64,000 nt of DNA, from NCBI RefSeq assembly GCF_964355755.1, contig NC_092671.1:11047001-11111000 (forward strand), written 5' to 3'. Source of the DNA: Antedon mediterranea (taxonomy: Eukaryota; Echinodermata; Crinoidea; Comatulida; Antedonidae). The notes under the pieces are model-generated. The model was not told where the DNA came from and did not search any database. It saw only the letters and a program-made list of their open reading frames with translations. Below, in pieces: positions 7,301 through 64,000 of the stretch. Numbering within the stretch: the stretch's first letter is position 1; each line of letters starts with the position of its first letter. Both the position numbers and the translations under genes were made by a program.

Positions 7301-10300
7301 GCAATTCAAATCAAGTTCTTTTTAAAAAAATGGATTGATTCCCAATTAAACACTCAAATTAAATAATTTAGTAGTAATGTAAAATTTCTCGTAATCTTAG
7401 TTAAAACTACTTCAAACTTTTTTTGACTACACTATTATTTTTGGTAAAAAATCATATATAACAATAATTAAAATTGATTATTTGGGTCATAATTGTATTG
7501 TAGTTTTGATCAAAAAATTGCTTGATCTTCATTTCAGTAATTCTAAAAGCCTTCAATCAAAAATTAACACTGTAGTTTGTAATCTTATTGACCTTTTTTA
7601 ACCTATTCAGTCCACAGCCACCCAAGGAACCAGAAAAGGAACAGGAATGGGCTGATGAAGAAACAGATGTGGTACATCTAAAGGACGACACTTTTGATGA
7701 CTACCTGGCAACCCATAGCTCAGTCATGGTCATGTTTTATGCACCTTGTAAGTAACTTACTTTTGCATCACTAACCACATTGTCTCACATTTACAGTTGG
7801 GTTAATTTTGGTTTTCAATAGAAAAAAAAATAGGTTCAAGTACTATGGCCTTATTAATTATCAATTAGATACAGTTTCAGTCTTGAATGAGTATCTCTTT
7901 CCCTTATGTGCATAATTCTGCAGAACCAACTTTATATTCATTGACCACATTAGTTTCTGATATTTTGATGTAGTTTTTATATGTTGTTTATTTATTGATA
8001 ACATCCTTTAATACAGGGTGTGGACATTGTAAGAAGATGAAACCAGAATATGCCGATGCAGCAGCAGAACTTAAAGAACAAGAGGTATAAGAATATATAA
8101 TATGTCAATCAGTTCAATTATTCAACCTCACATTCAGTTTTAGTCCAGGAGCTTATGTCGAAAAAAAGGCACTTGTAGGCTTTTGATGTTAATTGTCGGC
8201 ACCAACGTTTTTCTGACTCAGAATTTTTCGCTGAACAAGAAAAACTTTGGTGCCATTTTTTTCGACCATGGCAAGTGGCCGCCATTTTGATTTTCAAGAT
8301 GGCGGACTAACTTTAACAAAACTGATCATGTGTGGTATCATTGGAAAGGGAATTAAATACTGATCATTTATTTCCATTACACCCATACCCCAAAATGCAT
8401 AGCAACAGAGATAATCGCAATTACATTATGTCATGTGACCAAAATGAGGTCAAAGGTCAAATTTCGACAACTTATAAATACCATTGTGTTTGGTATCAAC
8501 GGAAAGCTTTTTTTATACTTAGTACAGCTGTACATATAGTTTTTACATTCATCACACCATTTTCTAGAAAGTTTAAATTTTGTATATAAATAATATAGCT
8601 AATACACCTTATTTCAAGTTTAAAATAAGTTAGTTTATTAGTGTAACAATGTGTTAAAGCCCTACGACCTAAGTGTTTTCGACCTAATTTAAGGTCACAA
8701 ACTACATTTTATGTAAAAATAAATACTATATGATCCTATTTCGATAACTTTTTTCGTCTTTAAACTGTTCAAAATGTGAAAAATAAGTTGATTCTAATAA
8801 TAATATTTTAATCGGCCCGCTAAATCCCACAAGGCATTGATATTTTCGTGTTGATATGGATGCACGGCCAGTTTCGGTCGGTGATCGTCAAAACAAATAA
8901 GAGAACCATAACTTTTTGGCGAAAATACCAGGTCTGCCCCAATTTGTATTAACGGATTCTGCCAAAAAAGGAAAGAAAATTATTTCAGCAATGAGACAAC
9001 GTCATGATAAGCATATAGCAAGCGTACGATGTTCGTACGTTACCGTTATCTTTTAATCTTAATTAACCTTAGAACGTACATTTAAGACAATATGACCTGG
9101 TTTATTGTTTTTAAAATTATATATTATACATTATTTTTACAAAACGACAACAATTGCAGGTTTTGGGGATTTAACATACAAAATGACTATCAGATGTATT
9201 GTATAAATGAAGCCTATACAGTATGCCACCATGTATAGTCAGGGGCGGACACAGGGTGTTGCAACACCCTTAATTTCATACTAAATGTTTTTTGCCAATA
9301 AATTAAAATTTAGATCCCATTTCATCATATATAAGAGCCTATATGTAAATTGACAGACCGCAGCGTACAATTGACCAGCAGTCAACAATACCGCGCACAT
9401 ATTATGTAGATAATTATGTTTGTGAACATGCTCAGAATGAATTTCTGACTGTTTAGTAGAATGCTTGTGCATCATGCGAAGGTACTGTATATCTTCATTT
9501 CCCATGCCCGTAATATTGGACCAAAATTCCGTAATAATTATGGACGTTCCGAACTTTGAAATAACAATGTTAAAATTGCTTCTTTCTGCAAATTTCAATT
9601 TTTTCTTTTCTGGAGTGTGGTTTAAGTAACACTGTTGTACAGTTTATAGTAGATAAATTAAATTTATTTTTGGAAATTGTGGTTTTACTGACTTATTTAG
9701 CATTTATTTCAAAATATTTTTTATCTAACTGGTTTTATCCTATAGTCGCGTAGTGTGTGTTACCGGCGGAAAAAATATGCGGTATACGCCGATCAGTATT
9801 GCTGTTTGCTACTGTAGCCCGATATCGAGTTTCATTTCGGGCGGTGAACTAGAGCTGCCATTTATCGTGAATTTTACGTGTGAGAGTACCATGCTAGGGG
9901 TGTCATTTAACCATGGGGGCCTGTGGCGCATATGCTCAGTACCGACAGCCCTGGATTCTTGGGCAACCCTATTCAAATGGTCCTGCTACCGCCCCTAATA
10001 GTACTTCAGAACTACCAGTGGATATATAAAATATACCAAGATAATAACATTATCTTTCAATTCAAGATAATAACATTTCCATATCTGACGTGACCATGTC
10101 TAAACTGACATTCAATATTGTGTATTGGGTACACTTAGCTAACCTAGTCAAATTTCAACATCGCTTTCCTCTGAATCAGAGGCGGTAGATGGGTCAGTGT
10201 TTTCACATATTAATTTAATTTTGTTAAACAATATCGGGCTACAGTAACAAACAGCAATACTGATCGTATACCGCATATTTTTTCTGCCGGTAACACACAC

Positions 10301-13300
10301 TACGCGACTATGGAATAAAAACAAGTTAGATAAAAATATTTTGGAAAAAATGCTAAATAAGTCAATAAAACCACAATTTCCAAAAATAAATTTCATTTAT
10401 CCCCTATAAACTGTACAACAGTGTTGCTTAAACCACACTCCAGAAAAAAAAATATCGAAATTTGCAGAAAAAAGCAATTTTATTTTATTTATTTTATTTC
10501 ACATCCAAACAGCGAAAAATTGCCAATTACAGGATGCATTAAAACTCTTTAGATATAAATATAGAATTAAAAGCACATAAAAATACAAAACATGAAACAT
10601 ACAAAATGGCAAACTTAAATCGATTTAAGAATTTTAGACCTAAATTTAGACAAAGTGTCAAAAAAATATCGATAGTTTTATCCTTATAGAAATTGAATTA
10701 AAACGCTTGGATAATCTTTGAATGAAACCATTTTTGGTTACGTTGACTCGACAACAGGCAAGAGAAAATAAGTCGGTGTTGCGAGAGTTTGGTCGACTAA
10801 TTTTGAGAGAAAAAAATAATAAAATATTGCATTTAAAAAGGGAGTTGAAGCATTAACACTGTTTAACACTGTTATTTCAAAGTTGGGAACGTCCATAATT
10901 ATTACGGAATTTTGGCCCAATATTACGGACATGGGAAATGAAGATATACCTTCGCATGATGCACAAGCAATCTAAACAGTCAGAAATTCATTCTGAGCAT
11001 GTTCACAAACATAATTATCTACATATATATCTGTGCGCGGTATTGTTGACTGCTGGTTAATTGTACGCTGCGGTCTGTCAATTTACATATAAAAAGTTTA
11101 TGGTTCTCTTATTTGTTTTCATGATGGCTGACCGAAGATGGCCGACCGAAACTGGTCGTGCATCCATATCAACATGAAAATATCAATCCTCGCACGATGC
11201 CTTGTGGGATTTACATCGGGCCGATTAAATTATTAGAATCAACATATTTTTCACATTTTGAACAGTTTAAAAACGATAAAAGTTATCGAAATAGGATCAT
11301 ATAGTATTTATTTTTACATAAAATGTAGTTTGTGACCTTAAATTAGGTCGAAAAAACATAGGTTGTAAGGCTTAACATATCGTTACAGTAATAAACTCAC
11401 TTATTTTAAACTTGAAATAAGTTGTTAGCTATATTATTTATAGACAAAATTTAAAATTTCTAGAAAATGGTGTGATGAATGTAAAAACTATATGTACAGC
11501 TGTACTAAGTATAAAAAAAGCTTTCCGTCGATACCAAACACAATGGTATTCATAAGTGGTCGAAATTTGACCTTTGACCTCATTTTGATCACATGACATA
11601 ATGTAATTGTGATTATCTTTGTTGCTATGCATTTTGGGGTATGGGTGTAATGGCAATAAATGATCAGTATTGTATTCCCTTTCCAATGATACCACACATG
11701 ATCAGTTTTGTTAAAGTTAGTCCGCCATCTTGAAAATCAAAATGGCGGCCACTTGCCATGGACGAAAAAAATGGCACCAAAGTTTTTCTTGTTCAGAGGA
11801 AAATTCTGAGTCAGAAAAACGTTGGTGCCGACAATTAACATCAAAAGCCTACAAAATGACATAAGCCCCTGGACTATTTATAATTTTTAAAATTAGAATG
11901 TAAATAACCAAGATAGCTTATGTCTTTTGTTCAGATTGAAGCTACACTAGCAGCAGTTGATGCCACAAAAGAACCAAAGGTTGCCAAGCGCTTTGGTGTC
12001 AAAGGTTACCCAACAGTTAAATATTTCAAGTAGGTTTGATTAAATAATAATTACTGGATTCATCATTAAAAAAACTGATACATAACTTTAATCTATTATA
12101 TAATTATAACAAAGACGACTAAAAACCCTAATGTAGTAATTCAATATTTGCATGTTATAGAAATTTTCGATATTTGATAAGCTGATTGTTTTATTTATTT
12201 GAGTTTATGTTTAAACACACAAACATTATCCACATGTCTGCATTTATACTAATCAAATGCTAACCCAGACATTTGTAAAGCATTATTAAAGAGGCTGTAT
12301 ATAAAAATGGTATGAACCAAACCTCAATAAATAAATTAAATTTTTTTTGCTTTTTGCAGAGATGGAGAGTTTGCTTGGGATTTCAGTGAAAGAACATCAG
12401 ATAAATTCGTAGAGCACATGAAAGAGTGAGAACCTTTATTTTTTAATCTGATAATGTAACGGATATTCAGGAGCAGATCTAGGAAGTAGTACTAATTGCG
12501 TGGACCCTGTTTTGACAGCTAAAATGAAATTATTTTTATTACTTTTGATGTCTACTTTTGACAGACTATTCATTTTAGTGCTCCCCTGTTTAAAAGTTCA
12601 TGGATCCGCTTCCCCCCTGATATTTATTTAGAAATGATGTATTTTATTTGTATCATAAATTAATGTATCAATTGACATATTTTAGTTCAATTATTATTAC
12701 TTTTATTTATAGGAGAACATTTTTTTAAAACTGTATTATTTATACTGTAGTATAGTTATTAAATGTTATTATATTACAGTCCTCAGGAGCCTCCTCCACC
12801 ACCACCCCCTGAACCAGCATGGAGTGAAGAAGAGAGTGCTGTGGATCACTTGGGCAACGATAATTTTAAAAACGTCATGAAGAAGAAGAAACATGCTCTT
12901 GTCATGTTTTATGCTCCATGTAAGTTTTATTATATTGTAGGGCCTAGTTTAGTTTTTTAATTATATAAATCAGAACATTGAACAACTCTATTCAATGTTG
13001 TGAATGCTAAAGCTCTGTCTAGACTATCAAACTTTATGTGACCAAAAAAATGTGTTGTGCCTATAATCGATGTCTATGTTTATATATGGACACGAAATCC
13101 TATTTCTTTCTCTCTGTCTACCTACCTTCACTACTACTGACTTAGAGTGAAATGCACTGTTTAGAATCATCTCTTGGTTAAATTTAACCAATAGTTCTTT
13201 TCACATTCTTAACTGAATTGAAATACATTTTTTTTTCAGGGTGTGGTCATTGTAAGAAAGCAAAGCCAGAATTTCAACAAGCTGCGGCTAAATTTGAAGA

Positions 13301-20017: not shown

Positions 20018-21670
20018 TCAAAGAGCTGGACATGTTTTCCTTCTTTCCGTCAACCTCGGATGCAACGATATCGGAGGCGATTTCTGAGTTTTGTTTTCCG
20101 CTATTGATCCAGACGAGGAATGGCTAAGTAACTTTGCTTGATTGATATGAACATTAAGGATGCTCATGGCTCTCTTTAATTTTGAACACTTTCTTGGAAG
20201 ATTTGATTTTCTATTTTGCAATACCTCACTTGCCAGATTTAACACCATGTCATTTATTCGATGTGTGTCAACGGCCGCTGATAATTCATAGAATTTCCAG
20301 TTATTCTCTCTAGCAAGGGTGAAACCATCTTTGTAGGAAACATGGCGACCTTGTTCAAGCTCTCGTTTGTTTCCTATCAGGATTACTGGAAGATTGCTCT
20401 TGCTGCTCGAGACGATCTTATCACGAAAGGATTTCGCCGCAGCAAAACTTTTCTTTGAAAGAATTGAGTACACATATAAAACAGCGTCTGCATTCGCAAG
20501 ATAGTTATCTAGTGTGTCCTGTAAAGAAAATAAATTCGTATTGATGTTTAGGCCTATTATTTTTATTCTCTAGACTAATAGATGAGTTTTGTAAACAAAT
20601 ACTAATTAATGGACCTGGGGGTATGTATAAACATTTGTATAAAGCTAAATTCAATGAAAACATAAATCAAGATTCTGCAATTATGACAAAAACATTCTTT
20701 TAGTACAGCAGGCCACGTACTCTTATGTTAGGGATTTTTTCAATTCGTTCTGTACATTCTTATATTATACTCCATGTTTCTTGATTTTAAAATACAAAAT
20801 TCGTTTGTAAATATATCACTATACTGAATGTTTTACTATAAATTATGTAACATGTTTTATTAACAATAGTTTAATCGTATGCCTAGCTGATTACCCACCT
20901 GTCCGGCCGTGTCATAAATCTCTAACTTCACTGCTTTTCCATCAATCGTTTCGTATTTGTCATAACAGCATTCTATAATTAAAAAAAAATAAAAAGTATG
21001 TTTACACCTACATTTATTACCGATCACCATGAAACATAATTTCCTACAGAATTAAAGAGATAAAACATGACTTTATTGTCCAAATTAGAAATTACATTTA
21101 TCGTTGTCATAGTAAATTACATTGAATATACAAAATGCAAAATAATACTATCCTATACTTTGAGAGGTGAGAGAGTTTGTACGTTTGTCCGTTATTATAG
21201 TATACACGCGCGCATTCATGATTATCAATTGAATTATTTTTTTTAAAACAAAATTGACTTACCTAAATTTGGATCATATTCGTGTAAGTATCTACCACAA
21301 AGAAATCTCACAGCAATGGCTGTAAACAAAATAGTCATTAAGTTAAATAACCTTATACCAGTACATAATGTCTATATGCAAAACAATTTTATGTACCGTG
21401 CGGTATCTTAATCAACATATAGTTCTTAGTAGTGTAAATAGTTAGCACAATAACCGAAGTTTTATATTTACTTTAAGCCATTTGGAACACATGATGGACA
21501 CCTCACTTTCCTAGTGGAAAGTTCTTGTGAACAATCCTCTAGTTAACATTTCTTATAATGCTATTTTATACTGATGTTTGATTTGTACTCGTACCTGATT
21601 TGCCAACTCCATCTTCACCTAGCAAAACAAATCTTAGTTTTATTCCAGAGTTTCTTTTATCAGTTTTCAT
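20018..21670 (-). CDS. Ras-like small GTPase (RERG/RASL-type)
   Basis: Signalling GTPase of the Ras superfamily. Coding exons on the minus strand are 21670-21595, 21319-21263, 20972-20899 and 20518-20018: 708 nt, 235 residues, with all phases consistent. The P-loop is GEDGVGKS at residues 18-25. EYDPNLE resembles the switch I of RERG-like proteins, and switch I Thr is not obvious. DTAGQ is at 65-69. The G4 motif is NKRE at 119-122 rather than NKxD, and the G5-like SAA is at 149-151. An approximately 60-residue basic, Ser-rich tail ends in CPAL, a CAAX-like end whose Leu would favour geranylgeranylation if used. The start at MKTDK is chosen because the upstream part of the exon (to 21699) and the 5' exon contain no in-frame ATG. 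I cannot assign it to a specific vertebrate gene. Confidence 0.85.
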
Positions 21671-21699
21671 CTTTGAGATTTCTTCTTTTTTTTCCAAAT

Positions 21700-24537
21700 C
21701 TGAAATAAAACAAACTAGTGTTAAAATGAGTTTGTTGCGTAGGAGGCCTACTGATACAAAATAATCAAACCGTGTCCATTTTTTCTCTAATGATTGTAGG
21801 GACACTTGTTTGTGTGTGAAAGAAGGTCTGTTTTTAAAACTCTGACATGAACATTCGTTGGTAAATTAATTCATATATTTATAAAGTATATTATTATTAG
21901 TTAGTACATAATTACGTCAGACAATAACATGATTTATATGAAGATAGGTATAGTTTGCTTTCATTCAATCTAAAGGCTAAGAGGGTATCATTATAATATT
22001 ATCAGCTTAATTAATTAAACTGTGTGTGCTAAAATACATCATAGTTTTCTATCACATCTACGTCATGCGACAAAATTGAGGTTTTTTTTTAACTGGAGTA
22101 TTTGTTCCCAATTGTTTAAAGGCTATGAGGAGGTTATCAATTATAATATTCCGTGTTTGCTAAACACATTGTTGTCTTATATCTTTATTATTAGCACGTA
22201 ATTGATACGTCAGGTAACAAAATTGATTTCTTTAAGGGTATAGTTTACTCTCATTTTCATCTCAAAGGCCATCATATATCAATTATATTATCATCAGATG
22301 AATATTAATCCAAATCGTGCGTGCGAAATATATATTATTAGGCTGCGTTGCTTTTCTCCTTGACAGAGCGAACCGTATTGTTTAATAATAGTGTTTCTGA
22401 CGTGGATTGTTTTATTTGATTGGAAGCCGTCGGGTAAAGCATCATCCTACACAATGATACCTTATTATTAGGCCTTCAGTGCTTCACTGACGCTGCCAGC
22501 AATACACCTACGTCATTAATCTGGTTCGTATTTATTTTTAAGACAATTGAATGATGATTTTCGCAGAGTAGTATTATTAGAATGATGTGTGGTCGAGAAC
22601 CAAATGTCAACAATTAATTACAAGAAGATTCGACCTAAACCTTCACTGACTAACTAGTTTTCGCTAGGCCATACCAATTTTTTTTTCGAAGCTGAAATAC
22701 ATTATACATTTATCCTTTCCGTGTATAGTACTATTTTTAGACGAAGTTGAGACAACCCCTTTTCTACCACCTAAATATTTTAGTATTAACTTCGATAATA
22801 ATCAGAAAACGATAGTAAATTGTGACAAAATCTGCCAACCGTCTATTTTATAATAATAAATGCATACAAATTCGTTACCCACCCACTTCTGCTTCTCCTA
22901 GTTTTACCCAATGATAAAACAAGTCAGGTGCCATATACCGTGTAAAGTCTACAACGAGTCGTACAGTAGGCTAACGATGAATTCATGTAATTACCAGTGT
23001 TGTATTTTTGTCTTAAATACAGCAATACAGTAATTATAACCTTTACATTTTTTTAACAATTTCGATTTGGTTCTTTGTAGAGATACTCATGCCCGAATGA
23101 TCGTGATTAAATTTGATTGGCGTGTACATCGTACTTAACACAGTTTTGTTTTTAGATTTAGATACCATTTGCATTATTTAATTGTAGGGTTTTAGTAGTA
23201 TTGTAGTGTCGTAATAGCTGTAGATTAAATATACTGTAAGGTTACAAAAATATAATCTAATACCACAACGTTAAGTAAGCAGTTACAAAGAAAAGATAAA
23301 TGTTCTTTGTCATTATTATTTAAACAAACCTTGGACTTAAGGAACATTGCTCTTTTTAGTCAGGCGGATCGTTCTTTTTGGGACAACTACTCATTAAAAC
23401 AAATATATACACAAATGTATAGAATACCGTACAAGAAGTTTGTGGATTATTGCTATTACTGCTATTATATGAAAAATAATCTTTGTATGCCTATTGTGTG
23501 CATAGTATTCTTACATGGAGGAATAGTTATTGTAATGTTCTTGTAATTCACTATAAAGTGAACCCCGGTATGAAACGCCCAACTAATGTTAATGTACACA
23601 TTGAATGAATTAAACAATTATGAAAATTATTCTTTATTCTTTATTTCAAGCCAACAGTGTAAAACACCAATTACAGGTTATACACAAAGTCAATATTATT
23701 TAACTCTAGGGTAATCCCGTCGCCTGGTTAATAGAAAGGTATTGTTAGATTTGAGTGTGGCAAGTGCTATAACGAATAAATATGATCAGATTTTTAGACT
23801 CATACCAACTTTATGGCTTATGGCATTTTGAGCCATACACTGTGGAAGCCTAAACATTCTAAAAGTTGAGTCCAGAGACCGTTCAATTCATCATTTGTGT
23901 GTATATGTAGGCCTACATACAATTACAATCATGTAGGCCTATGTGTAAAGTAATACTGTAATAATTGTGCTAGGAACATACGACAAGTAACTATGTAAGA
24001 GTACATACCCATTATGAATAATACATAAAAAGACCAAAAACTTTTGACAAAAACGTACATTAGAATAGTAAATCCCCTGATGATGACAGGATTTGCACCA
24101 GAAACTTGTTTTATATCATTAATTACATTTTGAAGTTTGAAATCTTTAATTACACTTTGAAAGCCAGTAGCGAGAAAGTTTAATTCCTACGTTTGTTTTT
24201 TAATTTAAGTATTTTTTGCTTTAAATTACATTTTTTTTTCAGGTAAATAATTGTTTGGTTAACGTGAATAACTTATGTGACAAAATGACACATTCAAAAA
24301 CAAACTTGAAATAAAAAATATTTTTCAGGGGGACAATAATATCTTTAAAACTGTTACGTCAACAAGCGAGCAGCGTTTTTTGTAAGAAATATTTCTTGTT
24401 TAAATCATTATCAAAAAACACAAAAATATGATCCTTCTATTCTACACACAGTCATTAAAAGAACTATTTATATTACAAATATCACTTTAAAGTGGACACA
24501 ACAGTGGATATAAACACTCAGTAACACAGTACTTACT
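21700..24537. other. GTPase intron 1, no exon seen
   Basis: AT-rich intron. Degenerate direct repeats of about 100 bp occur at roughly 21910-22010 and 22205-22310 (shared GGTATAGTTT and ATCTCAAAGGC/ATCTAAAGGC words, followed by TATAATATTATCA). A right end of the TTAAAGATGTATTGTCCC family lies at about 24326-24345 (GGGGGACAATAATATCTTTA). Confidence 0.4.
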
Positions 24538-24661
24538 TGAGGTTTATCTTGATCGGGAACAATAATCACACAAGGATCACCAACCGACAAGATAACGATG
24601 TTGCTCCGGCGAATCACAAAAACCAATTGCACAGACTATAGCTCGTAGCTCGATTTTTATA
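24538..24661 (-). promoter_or_regulatory. GTPase 5' non-coding exon and TATA box
   Basis: On the minus strand TATAAAAA lies at 24661-24654. About 30 nt downstream begins an ATG-free segment ending at a good donor (CAA|GTAAGT, exon end 24538). The next acceptor is at 21700, immediately before the first coding exon (21699). This makes a coherent TATA-driven first exon of roughly 90 nt. The exon sequence 24554-24631 recurs inside a MITE at 27641-27719. Confidence 0.5.
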
Positions 24662-27601: not shown

Positions 27602-27829
27602 TAAAGCTCTGTCTAAACTATCAACATTTATGTTCCTTGTTCGGGAACAAAAATCACACAGAGATCACCAACCGACGAGATAACGATGTTGCTCCGGCGA
27701 ATCACAAAAACCAATTGCAGAGTGATAAAAAAATGTGATGTGCCCATACATGATGATCTCATACCGCTACCATATTTGGGCACATCACACTTTGTCAAAC
27801 TAGTTTGATAGTGTAGACAGAGCTTTAGC
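27602..27829. mobile_element. Family A MITE carrying a GTPase first-exon-like segment
   Basis: Ends are TAAAGCTCTGTCTAAACTATC and GATAGTGTAGACAGAGCTTTA, with the usual GTGATGTGCCCATA and TTTGGGCACATCAC core on the right side. Between 27641 and 27719 it contains about 79 bp absent from all other copies. That block matches, with only a few differences, 24554-24631, the 5' exon of the GTPase gene. Confidence 0.75.
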
Positions 27830-28019
27830 CATGTGCTAAAGATTTATTATAAGTAACGTTCATATTTTAACTCTTCATTTAAACACTTACCTACAGCGAC
27901 TCTCTACAAAAGTTAACTATACTTTGATAGCGTAGACAGAGCTTTAGCAATGTGCTAAAGATTTATTATTAGTAACGTTCAGATTTTAACTCTTCATTTA
28001 AACACTTACCTACAGCGAA
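27810..28019 (+). repeat. Tandem duplication of MITE end plus flank
   Basis: Two adjacent direct copies (about 27810-27901 and 27923-28019) share GATAGNGTAGACAGAGCTTT, ATGTGCTAAAGATTTATTAT and CATTTAAACACTTACCTAC with only a few substitutions. The unit is about 113 bp and includes the right terminus of the preceding MITE and its flank. Confidence 0.7.
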
Positions 28020-30877: not shown

Positions 30878-33800
30878 TCAGGAGTCTTGATACAATTTTG
30901 TACTTCTGATGTAATTACTTGTTAAGTCATATACTGTAAAGCTAATGCCCACTGCAATAGGTCCTTTAATCCAGTTCATACTAAGACCCTTATACAGTCC
31001 CCCAATTATACCGGCTTCTTGGACAATTACATTAGCAGTGTTTACAATACTTTCATAGCTATAAGTAGTGATTCCGGCAGTTTGCATTCGTCTACGTATT
31101 ACGTCTAACGGATAAGAAGCGGATTGTCCGCAGAGACCGGCTAAAGCACCAAATAGTAACCGTTCTTGAGGGTTAGGGTCAGCACCATTATGATGATCTA
31201 TAAATAAGTTAAACAAAGTTTTTTTATTTAAAACATTTCAAGATATCTTACAGGAAATATATAACACATTTGAGTTGTCTTGAGCTGTTTTGCCGTGAGA
31301 AAAAATTCTGACAGCTGACAAGTTACAACTCCTGCTATAAACAAAATTGAGTAAGTATACTCCACTATGAAATTGTGTAAAGTTTAAGGTTGAGCTTATT
31401 TCAGACAATCAAACATAACTTAAATACATGTGACACACAATCAATTTGTATTACTCAAAATTATGCAGATGGATTATACTTCCGGGGAGGCTTAGTTAGA
31501 CCAGATTTAATAAAAAATAAATGTAACTTACCAGAATACAGTCCTTTTAACGATTCATATGTAAAGAATGAGATTCCTCCATAAGGAATCACACCAAGAA
31601 TAGTAGGCGTAAAACCACGATAAAAAGTGCGAGGTCCTTCCTCTTGAAAGATTTTGATAAAAATACTTGAAAGACCTTTATACCTTTTAAAAAGAAATTT
31701 ATTTGGAAATATTACATTAATGCTTTTTAATTAAGATACATTTTAGATGGGCTTAAAAGTTAAAATTTGTTCTATTGGAAGAAATTGTCAGATTCTGAAC
31801 CATGACTTGGTCACACATCATGCCATTTTATGCCCAGTATCTTAAGCAAATTCTGTATATACAATGCCGTAAATCTGTCACATATGGAGCCTTTATTTAG
31901 TTAATTGTTCAAAGGTTAGGTCTGTAACAGCCTTTGACATGTGGCACTATAATTGAGAATTTGACTATGATACTGAATAAACTAAATACTGTATACAGTA
32001 CCAAGAACTGCTTCTGTATATACACTACACAGCTAAGAAAATAGTATAATAATTTATGCAAAAACTACTATTTTAATGATTTAGAAACTTACTAAAAATG
32101 AAATTAATGAATGAAATGAAACAATATTCAAATGTGTGTCATTTACCTGGTTTTATGTGTAATTGCCATTCTTGCTCTAACCATGTCTAAAGGATAAGTA
32201 AAAGATGCAGCAGTAACTCCTGCTAAAGAGCCAGCTAGAAATCGGTATGGAGGCGATAACATTCTGAAATATGATAATAAATAAAATATATCTCACAGAT
32301 TTGTACTCTGAAAAATACCTGAAGACTCTAGAATCTTAACTTTAAAAAACTTGTGTGTCTAGCTTCTTTCTATCATCATGAAGGAATGTTTATGTATTGC
32401 CATCAGTGGGTGTTTTAGATAGGTATGACACAACACAACGGCGCAGATCCGTTTTTAATAGTGGGAGGGACGTATAGATTTACTGATTTTTACATTCCAC
32501 TACCGCTGCATTGCGAAATCATGCAGTCCGTATAATTGCTAATTGGGATCATCAAAGCAATGTTAAGCATTCCGAAACACAGTTTTACCACAGGTGGATT
32601 CAAAGCAATTATTTTGGGTTACGCACTTTTTCGGCACTGATGCACCACTGATTATATGCACGCAAAATCTATTTTTCTTAGATACTTATTTTACTTGTTT
32701 ACTTGTTTCCCGTACACTATCGTCTACGGGATCGAGGCGAAGCACTCAGTGCTTAAAAGCCCCTCTTAGCAATAAAATCATATTCTATATAGGGTGAAAA
32801 CTTCAGCGGGTGGTTAGACCATGCGACGTTAAGTTTTGCTTTGAACAAGTTCACCGTAGCACATGAAACTACATCCATAGGCAGAGCATTCCATAAGAGA
32901 ATAACTCTCCTGGAGAACGTGTCCCTCCTAATATTAAGACGAGAGCTTTTAAACTTGAGTTTATATGGGTGTCCACAGGTCCGAGATTCTAGATCAAATT
33001 CAAAAAATGTGTTGATCGAAATACGATCGAAACCTTTAACAATCCTAAAAACTTGGATAATATCTGCTCTCTGCCTTCGATATCTCATGGTAGGAAGACC
33101 AAGAATTCTCAAACGTTGTTCATAAGGAATATTACGGTACCTAGGAATCAATCTTGTTGCTCTTTGCTGGACCTTCTCTATTTCATCCTGATCTCGTTTT
33201 CTAATAGGATTATAAACAGTGTTACAATATTCAAGCGTTGGCCTGACAATAGACTTATACAGCTTCAAAAATCCATCTTTATTCAAGAATTTAAAAGATC
33301 TATAAATCATTCCTAGTTTCTTATTAGCTCTTTTACAAATATCCGCTACATGCAAATTAAAGATTAAACTATGATCAAAGGTAACACCTGTAGATCTTTC
33401 TCCTGCTTTACCTCATGTAGTAAATTACCAGCCATTGAATACAATAAATTGGGATTATCACGACCATAATGAAATACCTTACACTTAGTGTCATTAAAAG
33501 GCAATTGCCAAACATTAGACCAATGGGAAGCACTGTCAATGTCTCTTTGAAATAAATCTGCATCATCAATGTTATTGACCACTCTATACAACTTGGTGTC
33601 GTCTGCAAATAAACGTATACTAGATTCGACAACATCAGGTAAATCGTTAATGAAGATTGAAAATAAGATTGGGCCCACAACGCTACCCTGTGGAATTCCA
33701 CTTAATACTGGAGCCTGTGATGACAATTGACCATTGACACTAACTCGTTGTGTTCTATTTGACAAATAATTAGAGAACCATCCTAGTAGATTTCCCGTAA

Positions 33801-36800
33801 TACCAAAACCTTTCAATTTGACTAGAAGCCTTTTGTGTGGCACACTATCGAATGCCTTTTTATAGTCTAAATAGACACAATCAAAGCTATCATGGTTATC
33901 CAGGTTAGTAGTCCAACTCTCCAGGACATCAAGTAGTTGTAATGCACATGATCTACCTTGTCTGAATCCAAATTGCTCATTGCACAAAAGACCATTACTC
34001 TCAAGATACATTACAAGTTTATCCCTAATAATCCTTTCCATCATTTTCCCTATGACCGACGTTAAACTAACCGGTCTGTAGTTAGCCGGGTCCTCCTTTT
34101 TGCCTTTCTTAAATATAGGTATTACAATTGCCTCCTTCCACGATAGAGGGACCTTCTGATCATTGAATAATCTAGTGAATATTAGACTGAGAGGGTAAGC
34201 AATTTGATCCTTTAATTCAATCAAAACCCGTGGGTGAAAGCCATCAGGGCCAGCTGACTTATCTATAACTAAGTTAGACAACAGCTTATGAATATCTTCT
34301 ACGTTAAACTCAATATCTGACATAGAAGCCTCAATCTTTTTATCAAGATTCGGAACATTCGATAAGTTCTCCTTACAAAAGACACTGCTAAAAAAAGAAT
34401 TAAAACACTCGGCTTTATCTTGGTCATCTACAACAAGTTTACCTTCAACATTTCTAAGAGTAGGAATACCAGATCTGGTGTTTAACTGAGAATTTACATA
34501 GCGCCAAAAAGACTTTTCATTGACTTTAACCTCATTTGCAATCTTATTTTCGAAGATGCTTTTAGAACTCTTAATCAAATTGACAGTATCATTCCTTACT
34601 CTAATAAACGTGTTCCATTTGACACTAGCACAGTCATGCCCTTTACGTTTTGCTTTGATATACTGTTTCCAGCATTTATTCTTCTGTTTAATAGACTTAT
34701 CAACCTCCTTAGTATACCACAAAGGTCTCTTAACATTTCCAGACAAGTGTTTCTTACACTTTGGAACAAACTGTTCCATACCTCTAGATAATATCTCTTC
34801 AAAAGAACCGTGCGAGTGTAACCCGTCCTTATCCAATAACTCAGTGTCCCAATCGACACCATCAAGAAAACCACGAAACTTATCATAATCAGCATGGAAA
34901 TAATTTCTGACCTCTACCACCTCTTCTTTGATTAAATTAACTGGAATTTTAAATTGAAGTACCATATGATCACTCTTACCTAATGGTGGAGCTTGAAGGA
35001 CCTCACTAATAGAATCCTCATTAGATGTAAGTACAAGGTCCAGAACATTGGCCTGTTCTCCTATTCTGTAACGGGTTGGGTCTCGTACATGCTGAGCTAA
35101 AAATAAGTCATTAATGGTGTCGAAAAAATTATGACTATTTTTACCATCTTCACCAGTCACATATCCTAGCTCCCAATTAATACTCCTATAATTGAAATCT
35201 CCAACTATAATAAAATCAGAACAAGAAAAGGATGTCACTTTTCTAAACAGAGAACACAAAGCAGAATTATTGACACTAGATCCGGCGTCACTTCTATACA
35301 CACATCCAATTAAAAAGGTGCGATCCTTGACTTTAATCTCAACAAACATGGATTCCTCAAACAAAATATCTTTAAACAAAACCGGAGTGGCAGACATCCC
35401 ATTTCGAACATAAATAACTCCTCTACCAGATGAAAGCTTTTCATTTGGCAAAAACATCTGAAAACCAGGGATATGAAACTCCTCTATAGACAATTCAAAA
35501 AAGTACTTCTTTGGTAGAATCTCAGTCAAAGCAATGATATCTACTTTCTCTGAAGATAAACGCAACAGAAGCTCATTCTTCTTATTTAGAAGGGAATCAC
35601 AATTTGTATAAAACACATTAAAAAAATCATTAACATCTTCTGACTGCGTAGAACTTACATTGTTAGGTAGTGTTCTCTTCCGATTGGGTAGTGCTTTGGG
35701 AACGAAACCGAGTTATTTTCCCCCTTCTAATTACCAAGTCTTTTTCCCCTTTGCTTTGCCTATCCCTCAATATGTCCCTAAGTTTATTATACTCATCACG
35801 TTCCTTTATTGTTCTATCATTACTTACTGCGCACTTTTTTTGTATAGCAATTTCAAAGGCATCTCTTTTGATACATTCCTCCTTGAAAACTACCTTTATA
35901 GGGCGGCACCCATCATCTCTGTGTTTACCCACCCGGAAAAATGTTCTCATTTCGACCTCTAGGTCAATATCCTCGAAAATACCTGCCAATTTACTGAGGT
36001 CATCATTTTTTCTTCTATCTGAGTCATTACTCTTGGACTCATCTATTCTATATAGCATCAAATTAGATTTTCTTTTCAATCTCTCATTTTCATCCTTAAG
36101 TCTATTTTCAATTATTGTCTTAACATCCTCATTATTAACAACACTAGACGACTGGGATAACTTTTTAATATCCTCTTTATTGATCTCTACCTCAGATTTA
36201 ATTGCTTCAATTGTTTTAATCATGGTTTTTTGTGTCTCATTAACATTATTAATAAGACCCATGAAATTGCCTACTGAGACTGAGCAGCTCCTACAGTACC
36301 AAAAAATGGATGAGTCATCTTTGGATAGCCACTTATATTTGGCTTCATTAATTTTCTGACAATCTATGTGGAACCATAGCTTACAAAGACCGCATAAAAC
36401 CGATTTGCCACCAGACATAAAATGGCCACCACATGAACCACATTCGTCTTCACCCTCGATATCTACTACCGTTTTATCAACTGTGCCTCCTGCATTACGT
36501 AATCTAGGCTTTGGCCTGGCACCTTGATCTTTGCTTTTGGAAGCCATGCCCTAACTGCTTACACAACCCTAGGCCTAGCGAAAGACAATCTAAAAAAGAA
36601 AAAATCTCACCAGTCCTTAGAATACAGTAAGAGCTCAAGCAGAAATTTGAAGCAATAAGAATAGGAATGATAATGATATGAAAGTAAACTAGCAAACAAG
36701 ATTCAAAGACTTTCCGATAACAGATATTCGTCCAACCACAAACCCAGGCCTAGCAAAGACAATCTCAAAAAATCTCTCCAATCGAAAGATAAATCGAATA

Positions 36801-60240: not shown

Positions 60241-60374
60241 ATATTTTTGGTAATAAAACTTTTTCACTAAGCTAGGGAATCTTCTGATATCAATATTCAT
60301 TAGACCGTACTTTAGTTAGCCAATCAAAATAAACGTATAAACAATTTTGCGGCGATGTTACATGTTGTTGAGGT

Positions 60375-62850
60375 AAAATATACTGTGTTTTACAATAACC
60401 AATTTGGTTAGAGTAAAACACAATGATAAGAATAGAGGAAACATTTAATAATATGATAAATGACATTTACATAGCAATTTATCACTGTGTTTTACTATAA
60501 CCAATTTGGTTAGAGTAAAACACAATGATAAAGAATAGGAAACGTTTAATAATAATAATGATAAATGTCATTACATAGCAATTTATCACTGTGTTTTACT
60601 ATAACCAATTTGGTTAGAGTAAAACACAATGATATAGAATAGGAAACATTTAATAATATGATAAATGACATTTACATAGCAATTTAGCACTGTGTTTTAC
60701 TATAAACAATTTGGTTAAAAAAGGGCAGAATGATAAAGAATAGGAATTTAATAATATGATATATGACATTTACATAGCAATTTAGCACTGTGTTTTACTA
60801 TAACCAATTTGGTTAAAGTAAAGCAGAATGATAAAGAATAGGAATTTAATAATATGATATATGACATTCACATAGCAATTTAGCACTGTGTTTTACTATA
60901 ACCAATTTGATTAGAGTAAAACACAATGATAAAGAATAGGAAACATTTAATAATATGATATATGACATTCACATAGCAATTTAGCACTGTGTTTTACTAT
61001 AACCAATTTGGTTAGAGTAAAACACAATGATATAGAATAGGAAACATTTAATAATTTGATAAATGACATTTACATAGCAATTTAGCACTGTGTTTTACTA
61101 TAACCAATTTGGTTAAAGTAAAACACAATGATAAAGAATAGGAAACATTTAATAATATGATAAATGACATTTACATAGCAATTTAGCACTGTGTTTTACT
61201 ATAACCAATTTGGTTAAAGTAAAGCAGAATGATAAAGAATAGGAATTTAATAATATGATATATGACATTTACATAGCAATTTAGCACTGTATTTTACTAT
61301 AACCAATTTGATTAGAGTAAAACACAATGATAAAGAATAGGAAACATTTAATAATAATGATTATTTACATAGCAGTTTAGCACTGTGTTTTACTATAACC
61401 AATTTGGTTATAGTAAAACACAATGATATAGAATAGGAAACATTTAATAATAATGATAAATGACATTTACATAGCAATTTATCACTGTGTTTTACTATAA
61501 CCAATTTGGTTATGGTAAAGCACAATGATATAGAATAGGAAACATTTAATAATATGATAAATGACATTTACATAGCAATTTAGCACTGTGTTTTACTATA
61601 TAGAATTGGAAACATTTAATAATATGATAAATGTCATTACATAGCAATTTATCACTGTGTTTTACTATAACCAATTTGGTTAGGGTAAAACACAATGATA
61701 TAGAATAGGAAACATTTAATAATATGATAAATGACATTTACATAGCAATTTAGCACTGTGTTTTACTATATAGAATAGGAAACATTTAATAATATGATAA
61801 ATGACATTTACATAGAAATTTAGCACTGTGTTTTACTATAACCAATTTGGTTAAAGTAAAACACAATGATAAAGAATATGAAACATTTAATAATTTGATA
61901 AATGACATTCACATAGCAATTTAGCACTGTGTTTTACTATAACCAATTTGGTTATGGTAAAGCACAATGATATAGAATAGGAAACATTTAATAATATGAT
62001 AAATGACATTTACATAGCAATTTAGCACTGTGTTTTACTATAACCAATTCGGTTATGGTAAAGCACAATGATATAGAATAGGAAACATTTAATTATAATG
62101 ATTATTTACATAGCAATTTATCACTGTGTTTTACTATAACCAATTTGATTATGGTAAGACACAATGATAAAGAATAGGAAACATTTAATAATAATGATTA
62201 TTTACATAGCAATTTAGCACCATGTTTTACTATAACCAATTTGATTAGAGTAAAACACAATGACAAAGAATAGGAAACATTTAATAATAATGATTATTTA
62301 CATAGCTAGCAATTTAGCACAATGTTTTACTATAACCAATTTGGTTAGAGTAAAACACAATGATAAAGAATAGGAAACATTTAATAATAATGATTATTTA
62401 CATAACAATTTAGCACAATGTTTTACTATAACCAATTTGATTAGAGTAAAACACAATGATATAGAATAGGAACATTTAATAACATGATAAATGACATTCA
62501 CATAGAAATTTAGCACTGTGTTTTACTATAACCAATTTGATTAGAGTAAAGCACAATGATAAAGAATAGGAAACATTTAATAATATGATAAATGACATTT
62601 ACATAGTAATTTATCACTGTGTTTTACTATAACCAATTTGGTTAGAGTAAAACATTTTAACTATGATAAATGATATTTAGCACTGTGCTGGATACAGTAA
62701 AACACAAATAAAGAATAGGAAACATAATAAATAATATGATACATTTACATACAAATTTAGTATTGTGTTTTACTATAGCCAATTTGGTTACAGTAAAACA
62801 CAATGATAATGAAACATTTATTATATGATGTTATTTACATAGCAAATTAT
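60375..62850 (+). repeat. Satellite of about 100-bp monomers with an internal palindrome
   Basis: About 25 head-to-tail units, e.g. starting near 60486, 60590, 60691, 60789, 60887, 60988, 61089, 61190. Each contains GTGTTTTACTATAACCAA then TTTGGTTAGAGTAAAACAC, a near-perfect 37-38-bp palindrome, followed by AAGAATAGGAAACATTTAAT and GATAAATGACATTTACATAG. Divergence between units is mostly single substitutions, with degraded units at the right edge (62640-62850). Short open frames here are artefacts of the repeat. Confidence 0.92.
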
Positions 62851-63010
62851 TATATTAAACATATCTTATTATCTAAACGTTATGATAAAGAATAGGATAC
62901 ATATAATGTAATAATATAATAAATACAAGTTACATAGTTTATCATCTTGTTTTACAGAACCAATTTGGTGACACAGTTAAACACAGTGATAAAGAATAGA
63001 AACTGTTTTA

Positions 63011-63420
63011 GGTTATAACCCTAACCCTAGTTTGAAGCGACATAATAAAATTAATTCATCGCGAAAAAGTACGTATCGTATTCAGAAACTTTTGAAATTT
63101 GTTAAATATGTTTAATAGGTTCTTACGTCTATAAAACAAACAAAAAATATAAATTTTACGAAAAATTCGTGATTTTAATAATTTGCATTTCTAAAAATGT
63201 ACACTTATGAAATACCATACATTTTCCAACACATTTTTACTTCATTGATGATTCCCAGAAATCAAAATAAAACAAATTATGATATTTCTTTTACATTATA
63301 GATGTAAGAACCTATATTGAACATGTACCAAATTTCAAACGTTTTTTAAGACGATACGTATTTTTTATCGATGAATTAAGTATGTGATCGCTTCAAACTA
63401 GGGTTAGGGTTAAATAACCT
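63011..63420. mobile_element. Fold-back element with CCCTAACCCTAG termini
   Basis: Left end GGTTATAACCCTAACCCTAG and right end CTAGGGTTAGGGTTAAATAACC are followed inward by mirrored TTTGAAGCGA, GAATTAATTCATCG-type and TACGTATCG segments. A further mirrored pair, AATAGGTTCTTACGTCTATA and TAGATGTAAGAACCTATA, extends the arms to about 150 bp. No coding frame. Confidence 0.8.
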
Positions 63421-63640
63421 AACAGTTCCATTCTTTAACACTGTGTTTAACTTTTAACCAAATTGGTTTTAGTACAACACAATGATAAACTATGTACATT
63501 TTATTTTTCATATTACATTATAGGATACATATAATGTAATAATAATAAATACAAGTTACATAGTTTATCATCTTGTTTTACAGAACCAATTTGGGTTGGT
63601 TACACAGTTAAACACAGTGATAAAGAATAGACACTGGTTT

Positions 63641-64000
63641 AGGTTATATAACTCTAACCCTAGTTTGAAGCGATCACATACTTAATTCATCGCGAAAAAA
63701 TACGTATCGTATTCAGAAACATTTGAAATTTGGTAAATATGTTCAATAGGTTCTTTTGTCTATAAAACAAACAAAAAATAAAAGTTTCAAGACAAATTCG
63801 TGATTTTAATAATTTGCATTTCTAAACATTTACACTTATGAAAGACAATACATTTCCAACACATTTTTACTTCATTGATGATTCCCAGAAATCAAAATAA
63901 AACTATTAGGATATTTCTTTTGCATTATAGATGTAAGAACCTATATTGAACATATCTACCAAATATCAAACGTTTTTCAAGACGATACGTATTTTTAGCG
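63641..64000. mobile_element. Second copy of the CCCTAACCCTAG fold-back element (cut by window end)
   Basis: Begins AGGTTATATAACTCTAACCC and follows the sequence of the 63011-63420 copy closely (TAGTTTGAAGCGATCACATA, AATAATTTGCATTTCTAAA, CATTGATGATTCCCAGAAAT). The right terminus lies beyond base 64000. Confidence 0.75.

Follow-up and report, generated by a model that had tools for sequence, protein, structure and literature searches.

In the genome of Antedon mediterranea, one MITE copy carries in its left half a short copy of an exon from an intact small GTPase gene of RERG/RASL12-like type. This exon, predicted to be non-coding and the first of the gene, is located at a distance of 3 kb on the same strand. 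We suggest that this copy is probably a one-off local templated insertion into a resident MITE, resembling the class 2 templated sequence insertions, and not a Pack-MULE-type capture. The first-pass annotation of the window, i.e., the whole 64-kb stretch analysed here (C2:11047001-11111000), had described a gene fragment captured by a MITE. One source, one insert and a donor in the GTPase gene, namely its predicted 5' exon, are all supported. Capture as an ability of the transposon, or as its product, is not supported, because only one chimera exists in the genome, the donor is close by on the same strand, the MITE is complete and the junctions are repair-like.

Structure of the chimeric MITE

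Alignment with 38 genome copies of the family shows that the MITE copy (27602-27827) is interrupted by a 90-bp insert (27633-27722), consisting of an 84-nt core with a 3-nt filler on each side, see Table 1. The core, 27636-27719, is identical to the donor, 24548-24631, at 79 of 84 positions (94%), with five substitutions, and BLAST of the window against itself aligns 27636-27722 with 24548-24634 (81/87 identical, E ~1e-30). The match originally described, ~79 bp between 27641-27719 and 24554-24631, was thus correct within a few bases. The last MITE bases before the insert are TTTATG (27632), the first ones after it TGA (27723), i.e., the insert is a pure addition and not a single MITE base is lost compared with the consensus.

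Table 1. Positions in the window of the chimeric MITE, the adjacent duplication and the donor gene.
Feature	Position	Strand	Basis and remarks
Whole chimeric MITE copy	27602..27827	+	Both terminal inverted repeats present, TA flanks; aligned with 38 genome copies
Left MITE arm (TAAAGCTCTGTCTAAACTATCAACATTTATG)	27602..27632	+	Family alignment
Filler TTC, 3 nt	27633..27635	+	Explained by neither MITE nor donor
Copied core, 84 nt	27636..27719	+	5 substitutions from donor
Filler GAG, 3 nt	27720..27722	+	Donor has CAG, so may be donor sequence with one substitution
Right MITE body and arm	27723..27827	+	Resumes family consensus straight after left arm (TTTATG^TGA)
Tandem duplication of MITE right end and flank	27801..28018	+	27801-27899 and 27920-28018, 95% identical
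Core donor, first 84 nt of predicted 95-nt first exon	24548..24631	-	Genome searches
Predicted non-coding first exon	24537..24631	-	Sequence prediction; expected start site to splice donor GTAAGT at 24536
TATA box (TATAAAAA)	24654..24661	-	First base 30 nt upstream of core boundary
Coding exons of donor gene, four, GT-AG borders	20018..21699	-	Intact Ras-family protein, 235 aa, RERG/RASL12-like

At the junctions there is neither a target duplication of at least 5 bp nor poly(A). TTTAT is found beside the donor end as well as in the MITE target, and a GAACA repeat spans that junction. Judged from the letters, the fillers and the microhomology look like products of end joining or break repair; they are short, so as evidence they are weak. 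All five substitutions in the core fall in the half away from the start site, a split with a chance of 1/16 that we do not use as evidence.

The donor gene is intact. Its product matches the Pfam Ras family with an E-value of 1.3e-34, and RASL12 and RERG are its best PDB matches. The minus-strand TATA box and the position of the donor in the first exon, both proposed in the first-pass annotation, agree with the sequence, and the predicted exon (24631-24537) contains no ATG. The copied part, 84 nt out of a predicted 95, runs from the TATA-predicted start site to 11 nt short of the splice donor.

The patched MITE is not the only rearranged sequence at this position. Its right end is touched by a tandem duplication with a unit of 99 bp, the flank part of which is single-copy. 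This second local rearrangement may be part of the same event as the insert. Elsewhere in the window, repeat units of about 100 bp form a tandem array (60373-63996), and there is a large inverted repeat in three pieces with 91–92% identity (8173-11854). Long minus-strand open frames at 32753-35712 resemble, by eye, a non-LTR retrotransposon endonuclease/reverse transcriptase and are apparently frame-broken near 33400.

Copy number of the block and of the MITE family

The assembly searched spans 354 Mb in 18 contigs, 11 of which are long. An 87-bp query of the block finds exactly two places in it, the donor and the chimeric MITE, and a 311-bp query around the donor again returns only these two. 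No third copy was found in the assembly. The proposal that had called for this search, one source and one capture, is thereby supported, while a high-copy repeat as the source of the block, suggested as its refutation, is ruled out within the assembly, its gaps and withheld parts aside. The window self-comparison bears out that the block is absent from the other family copies in the window, and it is equally absent from the 38 other aligned copies. The chimeric element, whose presence elsewhere had been left to be checked, is single-copy in the genome, compared with at least 1232 places where both exact 15-nt arms of the MITE occur at normal spacing.

The family consensus is ~145 bp and reads TAAAGCTCTGTCTACACTATCAAACTTTATGTGACAAAAAAATGTGATGTGCCC...GTTTGATAGTGTAGACAGAGCTTTA. 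The family is short, bears terminal inverted repeats, has a high copy number and lacks coding capacity, i.e., it is a MITE family. A target duplication of TA or TWA would distinguish a Tc1/mariner from a Harbinger type; the flanks are TA/TWA, and left and right 3-mers agree in 12 of 25 cases, no more than the 11 expected by chance.

At 125 places the two arms lie ~60 bp further apart than normal. The search for recurrent gene capture took family copies that are ~60–90 bp longer than normal. Among 46 records of such elongated copies, five, at four distinct places, hold at least 20 nt of non-family sequence; in the remaining ones the extra length is mainly due to nested copies or to the expansion of an internal repeat. 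A further ten long copies were inspected individually. The inserts of four copies were searched genome-wide, a search that did not extend to L049, L055, L060, L089, L091 and L092, and each of the four turned out to be multi-copy, with 8 to at least 40 matches. No convincing donor was found within ~1.5 kb of any of the inserts in the long copies. Recurrent gene capture by the family is rejected for this sample; all four foreign inserts tested are pieces of multi-copy repeats. Within the sample of long copies, the gene-derived insert with a donor nearby is the exception.

Other loci of the family were noted as well. L093 (G000:C11:4590400-4593500) is a MITE copy with a 76-bp piece of a repeat that has more than 1700 candidate places; pieces near-identical to this insert are located at C11:4589119, 4591946 and 4598257, the last also within a MITE. 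L035 and L042 (G000:C1:2231565 and C1:2617077) are two MITE copies with matching flanks, 385 kb apart, and a second same-flank pair is found at C1:2218313 and 2603376; both pairs are probably the result of a segmental duplication. At G000:C9:23484576-23485071, about ten MITE right ends are arranged with a period of ~50 bp, apparently a small satellite born from the MITE end.

Origin of the insert

We suggest that the insert is a repair patch made in place. A resident MITE would have been broken between TTTATG and TGA, in the left half of the element, and the break would have been closed by a short patch copied from the GTPase first exon 3 kb away, inserted via end joining or template switching. 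This origin is favoured because it accounts for the clean addition with its fillers, for a donor nearby and a single chimera, and for the tandem duplication alongside. The proximity of the donor is partly an effect of ascertainment, as the earlier reader could notice only donors inside the 64-kb window.

The age of the sequences does not help to choose. The chimeric MITE copy differs from the consensus by 5–8 substitutions in 137, the core from the donor by 5 in 82–84, summed over two branches, and the two halves of the adjacent tandem duplication by 5 in 99. These divergences are mutually compatible, so timing separates none of the models. An origin of the MITE insertion and the patch at the same time would fit them equally well.

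As template for the repair patch, in our judgement, local chromosomal DNA is somewhat more likely than the transcript of the gene. The 3-kb distance argues for a local template, while the start-site match argues for RNA and would be a chance event if the template was purely DNA. The core boundary at 24631 coincides with the expected start, 30 nt from the TATA box; a boundary falling within 3 nt of that point has a chance of ~0.0014 under a uniform distribution of donor ends across 10 kb, calculated post hoc. It is possible, but rather unlikely, that the GTPase transcript, nascent or reverse-transcribed, was the template and that the insert starts at its capped 5' end. Such a template would also fit the coverage of most of the predicted exon. 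In human, transcribed sequence is over-represented among class 2 insertions, which become fewer under reverse-transcriptase inhibitors (PMC5110952). However, the start site is a prediction, the insert ends before the exon junction and thus bears no splice mark, free cDNA is not expected to come from only 3 kb away, and poly(A) and a target duplication are both absent. Nascent RNA, still an unproven template, would satisfy both the proximity and the start-site match. It can be speculated, as an unlikely reading, that RNA of the gene itself, at its 5' end, was the source of the patch, whose boundary would then mark the transcription start; the patch would be a germline record of RNA-templated repair of a nearby break in an invertebrate.

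Capture coupled to transposition is quite improbable. Here, synthesis would have switched to the gene during excision of the MITE or gap repair, and the chimera would then have been mobile, as in Pack-MULEs. The intact terminal repeats on both sides agree with this, and the divergences of the MITE and the block fit one age. However, the chimera stands alone among at least 1232 family copies, with no descendants and no sign that it ever moved, and its donor is adjacent. Abortive gap repair usually leaves an internal deletion in the element, whereas this MITE has none.

Two sequences alone give no polarity, so the MITE could in principle have given the block to the exon, or a source that is now lost could have supplied the two of them. 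We regard this as very improbable: on the MITE side the block disrupts an element that is standard in all other respects, in the gene it sits between TATA box and splice donor with the gene intact, and it has no third copy in the assembly. Finally, tandem duplications are present nearby, but that the block was left over from a larger tandem duplication covering the gene's 5' end, with MITEs inserting later on both sides, is hardly credible: the homology ends abruptly at both MITE borders, the two arms sum to exactly one MITE with nothing missing or doubled, and a search for further donor homology outside the MITE found none.

Comparison with known systems

The chimera resembles Pack-MULEs and other plant TIR transposons: a non-autonomous DNA transposon holds a host-gene fragment between its terminal inverted repeats. 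Unlike Pack-MULEs, the chimera has not multiplied and shows no sign of having moved as a unit (there is one chimeric copy in the genome), the fragment is tiny and non-coding, and the donor is adjacent. Among animals, transduplication is described for the TIR element Turmoil-1 of C. elegans, which also holds host-gene fragments; these are coding fragments within its inverted repeats, unlike the present case (PMC2572040). Our literature search for gene fragments acquired during the gap repair of MITEs returned no report.

The closest likeness is to the class 2 templated sequence insertions, or TSIPs, described in human by Onozawa and colleagues (review PMC5110952). These are short patches from a distinct locus with the donor intact; they have no target duplication and no poly(A), show microhomology and non-templated nucleotides, and their donors are often transcribed. 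The patch in the MITE is likewise a second copy of a distinct locus with an intact donor, and it carries the same marks at its junctions. Different from the human cases, the donor is only 3 kb away, the target is a MITE, the host is non-human and the insertion is known from one genome. It provides a clean animal example of a gene fragment between transposon ends, apparently brought there by repair. If such repair patches are the raw material, gene-carrying MITEs require no special capture machinery, and the match to the expected transcription start makes the question of an RNA template testable.
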